In this document: one piece after another, positions 2,128-34,912 of the stretch
Position numbering within the stretch: the first letter of the stretch is position 1
Layout of the letters: each line of letters begins with the position of its first letter
IMG/VR virus record: IMGVR_UViG_3300045253_000012
Coordinates: 1-37,034 of that record
DNA from: a virus
DNA: 37,034 nucleotides
Direction: 5' to 3' (one strand)
Program-made: the position numbers and the translations under genes
Notes under the pieces: model-generated
What the model was told of the DNA's origin: nothing
Seen by the model: only the letters and a program-made list of their open reading frames with translations
Databases searched by the model: none

Positions 2128-2798
2128 CCTTAGACATTGAGAAAGAACGGCCTTTGTTCGAGGCAGCGATGATCGAAAGCAGCAAAGGACTTCCCGCGCC
2201 CAACTTAGCGCGGCATCCAGGTGATCGTGGCTACTCAGGATATGTTGACCCAAGGGCTGAGCATGCGCTCGTAGGATGGCTACTCGCCAAGCGCACCGCG
2301 GCGGTGCGCGCGGAACCGGTGCCTATGAAGGATGCGCCAGCACGAATTTATCTGGTCATCGAAGACGGCGGCGACGCCTACAGTTCGTTTGCCGATGCAA
2401 GAGAGCAAGCGAATATGAGCGACGGCATCAAGTGGTGTGAAGACCGATTTAGCGACCGCGACGTACCGTACGTGCGCGCCGATTTCATCGCCCCTCCAGC
2501 GCCTGTAAGTGCGGAGCCGGTGAAACATGCGTCAGCTGAGGATTATTTGCGCGGCAAGTATGGCGCGTATCGCGGGCATCATGCGTGGCGCGAGCTGGAG
2601 CAGGCGTTCAATGCAGGCGTAGCAAGCGCCCCGCCATCCACAGATGCGAAGGACAGCGTCGGCGCGCAGATGGCGAACGTGATGTTCAACATGTCGCAGA
2701 TGCCTGGACAGCCGATCACGCAGGAACACTGCAAGATCATGGACGGATTGAGAAAGCGTTGGGACGCAGCTATCGCAGCAAAGGGGCGGGAGCCGTGA
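2124..2798 (+). CDS. Hypothetical phage protein, 224 aa
   Basis: Start overlaps the HNH stop (ATGA), so translation is probably coupled. The N-terminus has ERPLFEAAMIES and the spaced Gly/Asp-rich stretch HPGDRGYSGYVDP. Residues about 65-120 read as a small alpha/beta unit (ARIYLVIEDGGDAYSSFADA, then DVPYVRADF), and the C-terminus has EDYLRGKYGAYRGHHAWRE. Modules of this kind recur in combinable phage accessory proteins of the early region. No enzymatic motif is visible and I assign no function. Confidence 0.65.
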   Translation: MTLDIEKERPLFEAAMIESSKGLPAPNLARHPGDRGYSGYVDPRAEHALVGWLLAKRTAAVRAEPVPMKDAPARIYLVIEDGGDAYSSFADAREQANMSDGIKWCEDRFSDRDVPYVRADFIAPPAPVSAEPVKHASAEDYLRGKYGAYRGHHAWRELEQAFNAGVASAPPSTDAKDSVGAQMANVMFNMSQMPGQPITQEHCKIMDGLRKRWDAAIAAKGREP

Positions 2799-2917
2799 AG
2801 CGAAAAACAGTCCTCTCATTTCCCGAATACGTGGAAATCGTCAGAAGCATCTTGTCGTTCGATGTTGGCGATATACAACTTCGATCATATTGGTTTCAAG
2901 GTTTTTCGCCCTTATAA
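2795..2917 (+). CDS. Small ORF with GTG start, 40 aa
   Basis: GTG at 2795 overlaps the previous stop as GTGA and is preceded by a purine-rich GGGGCGGGAG. The product is 40 aa (KRKTVLSFPEYVEIVRSIL, then DVGDIQLRSYWFQGF). Coupled overlap and the ribosome binding site favour translation. No family recognised. Confidence 0.5.
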   Translation: MKRKTVLSFPEYVEIVRSILSFDVGDIQLRSYWFQGFSPL

Positions 2918-2964
2918 GTTAAGGATGTTGAAACTGCGAAGCGCAACAAAAAGAAGGAATCCCC

Positions 2965-3348
2965 ATGAGCCACCAGCCTACCCAACCTTGCCCGTTCTGC
3001 GGAAGCGGCAACATTTCTGACGGCGAAGTATTGACCGCTGATGTCAGCGGAAAAACGTCGACGCAGTCCATGTGCAACGATTGCGGCGCTTTCGGACCGG
3101 CTGCCCATCTTGAAGAGGGCGAAATTGATTACGGCGATGTGAAGGCGATTGCAGCATGGAACGCCCGCGCCATTGCCAGCGTGAAGCGGGAGCCGCTGAG
3201 CGAGCCAGTGATTCAGGATATTGCCGAGCAAGATTTTTACCAGCCTGATGCTGGAAGCATGGATATTCGGCTACACCGATTTGCACGTGCCATCGAACAG
3301 GCCCACGGCATCACCGCTACTACTGCCAGCAGGGAGGATGGGGAATGA
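2965..3348 (+). CDS. Lar-family restriction alleviation protein
   Basis: A 127-aa protein with a strong AAGGAATCCCC ribosome binding site. The N-terminal zinc ribbon is clear: CPFCGSGN at residues about 9-16 and MCNDCGAFGP at about 35-44, giving a CxxC...CxxC pair, followed by the Lar signature in which an acidic stretch leads to AIAAWNARA. Lar of the Rac prophage reduces restriction by host type I enzymes, possibly by stimulating modification. The C-terminal 60 residues beyond the Lar core are unassigned. It lies one gene upstream of a DNA methyltransferase, consistent with an anti-restriction cluster. Confidence 0.8.
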   Translation: MSHQPTQPCPFCGSGNISDGEVLTADVSGKTSTQSMCNDCGAFGPAAHLEEGEIDYGDVKAIAAWNARAIASVKREPLSEPVIQDIAEQDFYQPDAGSMDIRLHRFARAIEQAHGITATTASREDGE

Positions 3349-25082: not shown

Positions 25083-25156
25083 TGGAGCAGGTAGAGAGAA
25101 TCGAACTCTTCTATGCACAGCTTGGAAGGCTGGCTACACGCCTTGTGCTTACCTGC
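25083..25156 (-). tRNA. tRNA-Gly (TCC), with CCA encoded
   Basis: A 74-nt cloverleaf on the leftward strand: acceptor GCAGGTA with TACCTGC, anticodon loop CT-TCC-AA on stem CAGC/GCTG, T arm with loop TTCGATT, discriminator T, encoded CCA. The TCC anticodon reads GGA (and GGG by wobble). A regular, functional-looking tRNA. Confidence 0.9.
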
Positions 25157-25466
25157 GTATTGAATAGGTGGCATAGCGCATCTCTATGCTTTCCAGACTG
25201 TTTAGAACTGGTAGCGCACATTCACCTAACGACTGCTGACTGCCAGCACACAAACTCTGGTCCACTGTGTGAATCGAAGAGGCCCCAGCCGGGACGTTCC
25301 AATCAGCATGCGTTAAGTGCCTGTCTTTCCAGGCTGTCAGCACCAGTCGCAGACAAAAGTCATAGACAGTGACGTCGTGGTAATTAATCGCCGGACCCTG
25401 CGCCAATAGCCATTGGTCGCACATCTTCAATTGCTTTTGGTCGTTTGTCGCCGCGTGGTCGAACAT
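25149..25466 (-). CDS. Doubtful ORF upstream of tRNA-Gly, 105 aa
   Basis: An open frame of 105 codons (LVLTAWKDRHLTHADWNVPA among its readable parts) whose 3' end overlaps tRNA-Gly by 8 nt. A strong AAAAGGAG site precedes it, but the best-spaced start behind that site is ATG at 25470 in another frame, giving only 28 codons (25384-25470; DVRPRGDKRPKAIEDVRP). The interval also contains hairpins (GCCTG/CAGGC, CACACA/TGTGTG), so it may be non-coding. No family recognised for either frame. Confidence 0.3.
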   Translation of the reverse strand: MFDHAATNDQKQLKMCDQWLLAQGPAINYHDVTVYDFCLRLVLTAWKDRHLTHADWNVPAGASSIHTVDQSLCAGSQQSLGECALPVLNSLESIEMRYATYSIRR

Positions 25467-34197: not shown

Positions 34198-34221
34198 GAT
34201 AATAATTTCAAATAATATCTT
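34195..34221. promoter_or_regulatory. Inverted repeat between divergent promoters (operator candidate)
   Basis: CAAGATA (34195-34201) and TATCTTG (34215-34221) are perfect 7-bp arms separated by 13 bp. The left arm overlaps the leftward -35 and the right arm overlaps the rightward -35, so one dimer could block both promoters. A-T-rich centre, typical of Cro/CI-type operators. Confidence 0.65.
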
Positions 34222-34246
34222 GCACTTTATTTTTCAGCGTGTAGAA
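34219..34246 (+). promoter_or_regulatory. Rightward promoter (PR-like)
   Basis: -35 TTGCAC (34219-34224), 16-bp spacer, -10 TAGAAT (34241-34246). Transcription would start near 34253 and first produce the structured non-coding stretch, then the 34700 operon with ERF and SSB. Confidence 0.55.
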
Positions 34247-34253
34247 TACTAAT

Positions 34254-34690
34254 CATGGAAACGCAGAAACAAGCAGGCGATGGCGAACAAAAGACCGTCT
34301 CTATATATGCGTAACTTGTTTTGATGGATATACGTCACGTACTCGATTAAATTTCGTACAGTACGTCAGAAACCATACCTAACCTGACCGGGTAAGCGTC
34401 AGGGCCAACATAGAAGCGGCGGCGTTGAGGGAAACGCAGAGTGCAAATAGTAGACGGAGGTTCTGGCGCACACAAGGGCGCAAAGAGGCCAGTAGGATAT
34501 GCACAAAGAGGCATTGACAAAGGGCATAGGCTCACGCTGGGTAAAGCCAAGTAGACCGAACCGATATGCACATAAGTCCGACAGCCGGAATCAATCCCGG
34601 TCCGCTTCTATGTTGGTTATCATTGGATATGAAAATTCTTGACGGGTTTTAGTCAGTTCGATTCCGGCTACCAACTTCAATTTATAGGGA
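34254..34690 (+). ncRNA. Candidate large structured RNA in the divergent control region
   Basis: About 437 nt between the rightward promoter and the first rightward gene with no convincing gene (only a 19-codon frame without site). Perfect helices: AAACAAG/CTTGTTT (34267-34273, 34315-34321), CCTGAC/GTCAGG (34383-34388, 34398-34403), a 15-bp long-range helix CCAACATAGAAGCGG with CCGCTTCTATGTTGG (34405-34419, 34602-34616), an internal GCGTT/AACGC, and AGCCGGAATC/GATTCCGGCT (34583-34592, 34660-34669) that crosses the long helix as a pseudoknot. Loops are purine-rich on this strand. It matches no RNA class I can name. Confidence 0.6.
34612..34675 (+). ncRNA. Degenerate tRNA-like cloverleaf at the 3' end of the structured region
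   Basis: 64 nt that can form acceptor GTTGGT/ACCAAC, D-like hairpin TCAT-TGGAT-ATGA, a 5-6 bp anticodon-like stem with 7-nt loop CT-TGA-CG, and a T arm with perfect loop TTCGATT (one stem mismatch). It lacks CCA and is shorter than real tRNAs. Its 5' strand is shared with the 15-bp helix, so the two folds exclude each other. Could be a tRNA mimic, a tRNA relic or an att-site relic. Confidence 0.4.
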
Positions 34691-34699
34691 GAGAAGAAA

Positions 34700-34912
34700 A
34701 TGAAGAAGCCTCAAGCATTTGAAAATAAAATTGGATTTGTAGAATCTGCTGATGAATTAGTGAGATATTGCAAACTTCTTGGTGACCAATTCCGGGATGT
34801 TGAGTCATATGACGATTTTGTATGGACAATGGCATTTGAAACTAGAATTAAAGGCATTGAGACATTGCTTGACCTAGTTAAAAGGTATGGAACGGAAGTA
34901 GTTAAAAAATGA
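34700..34912 (+). CDS. Hypothetical protein, 70 aa
   Basis: First gene of the rightward block, with AGGGAGAGAAG ahead of the ATG. Small helical acidic protein (FENKIGFVESADELVRYCKL, then LVKRYGTEVVKK). AT-rich like the following three genes. Stop overlaps the next start (ATGA). No family recognised. Confidence 0.65.
   Translation: MKKPQAFENKIGFVESADELVRYCKLLGDQFRDVESYDDFVWTMAFETRIKGIETLLDLVKRYGTEVVKK

Follow-up and report, generated by a model that had tools for sequence, protein, structure and literature searches.

What occupies the gene-free stretch between the divergent operons of a P22-like phage, at positions 34254–34690 of IMG/VR record IMGVR_UViG_3300045253_000012, is the question raised by this locus. 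The 37,034 nt of that record (positions 1–37,034) form the window, i.e., the whole stretch of DNA that was analysed. We infer, without transcript data, that the stretch encodes a structured leader RNA of about 420 nt at the start of the rightward operon, further downstream in which Erf-like and SSB proteins are encoded. The open reading frames tested inside 34254–34690 have no Pfam or PHROGs match, which agrees with the original prediction that the stretch is free of genes. It is bordered by the following features.

34220–34247, plus strand: possible sigma-70-like promoter, read by eye (TTGCAC at 34220–34225, a 16-nt spacer, TAGAAT at 34242–34247)
34674–34692, plus strand: leader ACTTCAATTTATAGGGAGA, running into the start codon, from sequence comparison
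34700–34912, plus strand: first gene of the rightward operon, 70 aa, belonging to no family

The two boxes of the promoter, which had been called plausible, remain so by eye, but the score falls under the threshold of a promoter scan. The motif AATTTATAGGGAGA is unlikely to be a promoter for a phage RNA polymerase, given its single copy in the window. The 19-nt leader is identical in seven metagenomic contigs, among which several of the following genes differ; as far as these sequences can tell, the leader moves together with the RNA element despite those differing genes.

The RNA had been proposed on the strength of an inverted repeat of 15 bp, which is indeed exact (CCAACATAGAAGCGG at 34405–34419 and CCGCTTCTATGTTGG at 34602–34616, with 182 nt enclosed). 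Chance does not readily produce it: none of 2000 dinucleotide shuffles of 34254–34690 reaches 15 bp, and one reaches 14 bp. The local hairpins that accompanied the repeat in the prediction are also found, e.g., CCTGAC/GTCAGG at 34383–34403, referred to here as D2. The parts of the element needed below are these.

34255–34321, plus strand: 5′ domain with closing strands ACGCA (34261–34265) and TGCGT (34308–34312), from sequence comparison
34383–34403, plus strand: hairpin D2, CCTGAC..GTCAGG, immediately 5′ of strand A and present in all group-I homologues compared
34405–34419, plus strand: strand A, the 5′ side of the long helix, whose CCAAC competes with strand C
34602–34616, plus strand: strand B, whose GTTGG (34612–34616) is able to pair with A or C
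34671–34675, plus strand: strand C, CCAAC, the 3′ side of a tRNA-like acceptor

The folding energy of the whole region is unremarkable (z = −1.19), and the case therefore rests on comparison rather than on energetics.

Other phages have the element too: homologous loci were found in Aeromonas phage ST4 and in no fewer than seven metagenomic phages. A conserved protein encoded across the region, which would have refuted the RNA reading, was looked for in Pfam and PHROGs, and none is recognisable. Scanning IMG/VR for one helix arm, for two sequence landmarks and with the protein of the adjacent leftward gene as bait yielded L049, L030, L002, L054, L055 and L059 (L002 and L057 are the same contig, as are L054 and L058, and L055 and L056), while the locus L072 was retrieved by a gapped DNA pattern. 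The gapped-pattern matches other than L072 and the known loci were rejected as coding-looking or repetitive sequence, and none of the three matches in bacterial genomes resembles the element. BLASTN from the homologues led to ST4 and, weakly, to Caulobacter phage DMCA, and a search with ST4 led to HK620, swi2, STGO-35-1, 62AhydR11PP, phiEt88 and SopranoGao. BLASTN of the window region and of 23 kb of the phage gave no match among cultured phages, and no match was obtained with the 70-aa downstream gene as bait.

The closest comparison is between the window and L002, where the flanks are 86% and 94% identical over short stretches and the neighbouring protein is 93% identical, whereas the interiors give no alignment, such that the interior seems, from this comparison, to have been swapped as a cassette. 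A loop motif of the 5′ domain, GGCGAACAAAAGAC (34282–34295), is common to the window, L002 and L054; its closing stem is spelled with different letters in L002 and L054, with complementarity kept as judged by eye. In L059, the product of the gene 3′ of the RNA (2366–3271) is 301 aa long, and its C-terminus, GCWGSGSCAGVFFLGCDWPVNCYDYIGFRC, looks by eye like the C-type-lectin variable proteins of diversity-generating retroelements.

Covarying base changes across homologues had been named as the check on the long helix, and they are strong. The registered alignment A2 contains ten elements cut by hand at conserved landmarks, with a 2-nt bulge taken out of the L002 and ST4 rows. Across these ten sequences, 99% of the cells of D2 and the A–B helix are paired, with two-sided changes at 13 of 20 pairs; D2 alone is 100% paired and changes on both sides at 4 of its 5 outer pairs. 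The covariation score of D2 plus A–B is 0.622; shuffling lowers it to 0.163, and sliding the partner gives no value above 0.174. The A–B duplex is predicted at − 34.5 kcal/mol for matched and − 21.0 kcal/mol for mismatched strands (0/20000 permutations). Independent events are fewer than cells, since some rows have stems in common: the window, L049 and L030 are one such set, L002 and ST4 another, and the two L072 copies a third. When only the five distinct A–B stems are used, 152 of 20000 permutations do as well as the true matching or better, a rate close to the minimum possible of 1 in 120. From the two-sided changes and the near-complete pairing, we conclude on comparative grounds that the long helix and D2 are under selection as RNA.

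The same comparison does not support a second helix of 10 bp that had been proposed to cross the long one as a pseudoknot. This helix is exact in the window (AGCCGGAATC at 34583–34592 with GATTCCGGCT at 34660–34669), but it is not conserved in homologues: the partner is no better than chance in L049 (6/10) and L030 (7/10), where the 5′ strand is the same or a variant. Because the partner is absent in both, the crossing helix is probably not a real pseudoknot and is not counted as structure. Both of its strands are T-arm-like, and they look alike.

No Rfam family matches the window element or its homologues. The GOLLD and ROOL models, in particular, give no match at the gathering cut-off or at E up to 10, and none in the homologues. 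Matches to the SAM-III riboswitch (22 bits vs. a cut-off of 45, over the start region) and to the hairpin ribozyme are under cut-off and absent from homologues, and both were rejected. Neither Rfam nor ARAGORN calls a tmRNA in the window, and no tag reading frame is shown. A literature search of incomplete coverage found no description of the architecture. Taken with the homologues, the covariation and the lack of a recognisable protein, these results support the central proposal, namely that the structured RNA is undescribed and not plainly a GOLLD or ROOL RNA.

A feature missed by the original prediction is that GUUGG of strand B is complementary both to CCAAC of strand A upstream and to CCAAC of strand C downstream, so that A and C compete for B. 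Group-I elements have the CCAAC of strand C downstream of B, in most of them just 5′ of the leader, with imperfect C strands in ST4 and in the first L072 copy. The B–C helix is paired in 92.9% of cells, with two-sided changes at 2 of 7 pairs and seven compensated cells, and no permutation out of 20000 matches the true pairing over all 17 instances. Within group II alone (HK620-type, with GUUGUGG), B–C covariation is not significant (3421/20000). The predicted structure is one of two pockets on one shared strand, in which A–B closes slot 1 and B–C closes slot 2, and it is well supported by the aligned elements. The window meets the family features, namely the D2 hairpin, the A–B helix and a B–C helix sharing GUUGG or GUUGUGG. 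The pattern in a single sequence is not rare: a loose generic A-B-C detector returns about eight chance hits per window and was rejected, as too unspecific, as the sole finder of new cases. This detector found no convincing copy in the closest phages by terminase (Xanthomonas phage PBR31 and the Manatee Spring phages), which does not exclude one.

Constrained folds favour A–B by 5–9 kcal/mol in most elements (5.9 in the window, 7.7 in L072), and by only 0.3 kcal/mol in L049 and 0.9 kcal/mol in L059. As nearest-neighbour folding favours A–B in the window and L072, a switch would need tertiary folding, proteins or kinetics outside the model. The exchange from A–B to B–C involves just 5–7 bp, and the inner part of A–B can stay.

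The contents of the two slots suggest what is exchanged. L072 carries an intact tRNA-Val in slot 2, with strand B as its 5′ acceptor strand and strand C as its 3′ acceptor strand, and L059 carries an intact tRNA-Tyr within slot 1, with leader and trailer zipped by A–B. For both, the tRNA fold is unobstructed in the B–C state and is zipped or blocked by A–B. The corresponding features of the window are as follows.

34420–34601, plus strand: slot 1 cargo, with a D-arm-like hairpin GCGTTGAGGGAAACGC (34422–34437) and a T-arm-like hairpin GCCGGAATCAATCCCGG (34584–34600)
34612–34675, plus strand: slot 2, read by eye as a shrunken tRNA, in the position equivalent to the tRNA-Val of L072
34652–34668, plus strand: T-arm GTCAG-TTCGATT-CCGGC, 4/5 pairs with the consensus loop TTCGATT, directly 5′ of the acceptor C side

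The slot 1 ends of the window resemble those of L049, L030 and phage DMCA, in place of which L059 has its tRNA-Tyr. In DMCA (L060, 2500–2625), a stand-alone copy of the window slot 1 module lies between transposase and integrase genes. Slot 2 of the window meets the criteria of a tRNA acceptor stem (GTTGGTT/TACCAAC, 6/7 pairs) and of a T-arm with a consensus loop, one such arm being found in the region vs. 0.01 expected in shuffles. A very short D-arm, CAT-TGGAT-ATG, and an anticodon-arm-like AAATT-CTTGACG-GGTTT are added by eye. Neither ARAGORN nor the Rfam tRNA model calls a tRNA there, and the slot reads, from its letters alone, as a shrunken tRNA. Only the window and L072 have a slot 2 with clear likeness to a T-arm, other contents being present in several homologues, so tRNA cargo appears from the comparison to be one slot option among several.

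A second possible array lies on the minus strand of the window (25334–24752), with a D2-like hairpin GCCTGGAAAGACAGGC, strand pairs CACTTAACG / CGTTAGGTG / CACCTA, a broken tRNA with T-arm (25110–25094), a hairpin CTTGGTTG..TTCGATA..CAACCAAG (24880–24839) and tRNA-His. A 105-aa reading frame without family matches (25149–25466) overlaps its first part, leaving the array uncertain.

The same kind of architecture, also missed by the original prediction, is present and unannotated in cultured phages, often beside tRNAs or in tRNA clusters. HK620 has a chain of hairpin plus tRNA-like modules between its late promoter and the holin gene, and such a chain lies near tRNA-Met in swi2 and STGO-35-1 and near tRNA-Phe in phiEt88. 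Sequence related to the 5′ part of the chain is found inside the tRNA cluster of a Felixounavirus (TP1) and, in the Kuttervirus PhaxI, within nearly 2 kb that is free of genes. A query with the STGO element matched 942 phage records, many through the first 130–150 nt, and among the records listed the matching sequence is mostly unannotated. What connects the window with group II is shared modules and architecture; homology of this 5′ part to the 5′ domain of the window is not shown, as far as the alignments go.

Several further observations concern these phages. A sequence block of 130–150 nt, which starts AGATAGTTTTCGTGAGCGACTTTGCGG (L064, 1220–1375), is conserved in Ackermannviridae, Ounavirinae, N4-like and lambdoid phages, mostly without annotation. 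Gene-free stretches of 1.4–2 kb in PhaxI (L076, 554–2528) and phage St11Ph5 (L079, 1078–2500) are packed, as judged by eye, with tRNA-like modules with T-arms, which are unannotated and uncalled by ARAGORN or Rfam. In Klebsiella phage Magnus (L077, approximately 1375–1480), one module has the look of a tRNA-Leu derivative, with the sequence GGAAATTGGTAGACG and T-arm AAAGG-TTCGATT-CCTTT, and short hypothetical proteins are annotated over such RNA. An ARAGORN tmRNA call in swi2 (L063, 1406–1780) spans two modules plus a tRNA and is probably false.

We propose that exchange between A–B and B–C gates the maturation of a tRNA or tRNA-like cargo, a reading that fits both real-tRNA cases (L072 and L059). 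Gating is inferred without transcript or processing data, and we give it a probability of roughly 0.4. During transcription, A–B would form first and the cargo would stay unprocessed, a slot 2 tRNA being held back by the occupation of its 5′ acceptor strand in A–B and a slot 1 tRNA by the zipping of its leader and trailer. In general, leader–trailer pairing or the absence of an acceptor stem hinders RNase P. Once C emerges, an exchange of 5–7 bp to B–C would allow the tRNA or tRNA-like fold to form and to be excised by host tRNA enzymes, leaving an mRNA with the conserved 5′ leader. The freed tRNA-like RNA would then work in trans, its likeliest roles being to supplement the tRNA pool or to serve as a decoy for host factors that bind or cut tRNA. 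Such a role for the RNA released in the window is an inference by analogy, and it is plausible because amplification of a phage tRNA locus reportedly allows escape from a tRNA-Tyr-cutting defence (PMC13096335), and because parallel lines adapting to a host acquired a mutation in the T4-like RNAD region (PMC12685909).

The main rival to gating is that the RNA acts only in cis, as a leader controlling translation, stability or antitermination of the rightward operon, with its tRNA likeness incidental or fossil. The position directly 5′ of the start codon, with the conserved leader in the window and most close homologues, speaks for such a role, as does the weak SAM-III-like match over the start region, but that match recurs in no homologue and several downstream genes differ between phages. 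Both slots, moreover, carry real tRNAs in some phages, and the architectures of HK620, swi2, phiEt88, 62AhydR11PP, PhaxI and Felixounavirus TP1 stand alone or in tRNA clusters, not before a single gene; we consider a purely cis-acting leader unlikely, though it remains a serious contender. An ornate scaffold akin to GOLLD or ROOL, which multimerises or binds protein and whose slots merely tolerate inserts such as tRNAs, would suit a large, structured, phage-borne RNA near tRNAs, sometimes with one inside, all the more as tRNAs occur in GOLLD linkers too (PMC12286853). However, there is no Rfam match, size and sequence are different, and homologues show little conservation of the 5′ domain and inserts, making this scaffold a weak candidate.

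Another rival is a decaying tRNA array, i.e., recombination-shuffled tRNA remnants whose hairpins are kept only through recent common descent. Many modules do resemble broken tRNAs, the contents are highly variable and interiors are swapped between similar flanks (window vs. L002), yet it is difficult to account for two-sided compensatory changes in A–B and D2 unless pairing is under selection, and the pattern recurs in unrelated phages; we judge decay slightly less credible than the scaffold. A DNA-level element, e.g., a recombination or replication site using the inverted repeat, is very improbable: the long inverted repeat at the divergent switch and the cassette-like exchange of the interior speak for it, but DNA sites do not usually combine a 15-bp repeat with a spacer of 182 nt, and bulges, wobble pairs, a one-direction hairpin chain, embedded tRNAs and a ribosome-binding leader all favour RNA.

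Gated maturation could extend beyond this locus. It is conceivable, though we would not bet on it, that the element belongs to a class of phage RNA that has gone unrecognised despite being very widespread, in which chains of strand-sharing pockets hold tRNAs or their mimics and release them by strand exchange. If true, this would be an RNA-only gate for tRNA-like effectors, deployed against host defences that target tRNA or to retune translation. Phage tRNA clusters and the stable RNAs adjoining them (e.g., T4 RNAC and RNAD) have no known function, and a covariation-backed architecture with one strand choosing between block and completion of a tRNA acceptor stem offers a concrete and testable rationale for such RNAs. 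Since hundreds of sequenced phages, cultured ones included, have related sequence that lacks annotation, the proposal is directly testable.

Of the known kinds, T4 RNAC/RNAD and GOLLD/ROOL come nearest. T4 RNAC and RNAD (species 1 and 2 RNAs) are, like the window RNA, phage non-coding RNAs of unknown function. The T4 pair adjoins tRNAs and is expressed late by Northern blot (PMC9697503). RNAC has a T-arm, CCGGG-TTCGAAT-CCCGG, ahead of its 3′ end and folds strongly (z = −4.57). The two differ from the window element in being 139 and 119 nt long, in lying within a tRNA cluster, in having no demonstrated A-B-C chain and in showing no sequence similarity to the window. Against criteria of the RNAC/RNAD type, the window element has a tRNA-like 3′ end, whereas there is no tRNA cluster at 34.4 kb.

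GOLLD and ROOL share with the element a large, structured, phage-borne RNA near tRNAs, and GOLLD linkers can carry tRNAs (PMC12286853), whereas the window element has no Rfam match to them, is shorter and is chain-like with a shared strand. Phages L and Sf6 have tRNA genes at the start of the late operon, with tRNAs near the 5′ end (PMC8022706); those tRNAs are annotated as functional, whereas the element has a hairpin over the acceptor strand and a cargo mostly unrecognisable as tRNA. The sRNAs of lambdoid prophages (Pas and STnc100) are likewise phage RNAs and frequently lie close to tRNAs or sequences that resemble them (PMC13192938), but they are base-pairing sRNAs of E. coli prophages, and the window element has no Rfam STnc100 match. 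tmRNA resembles the element in having a tRNA-like fold with the anticodon part replaced. Membership is shown for none of the families tested, and the element is best placed among the tRNA-associated phage RNAs.
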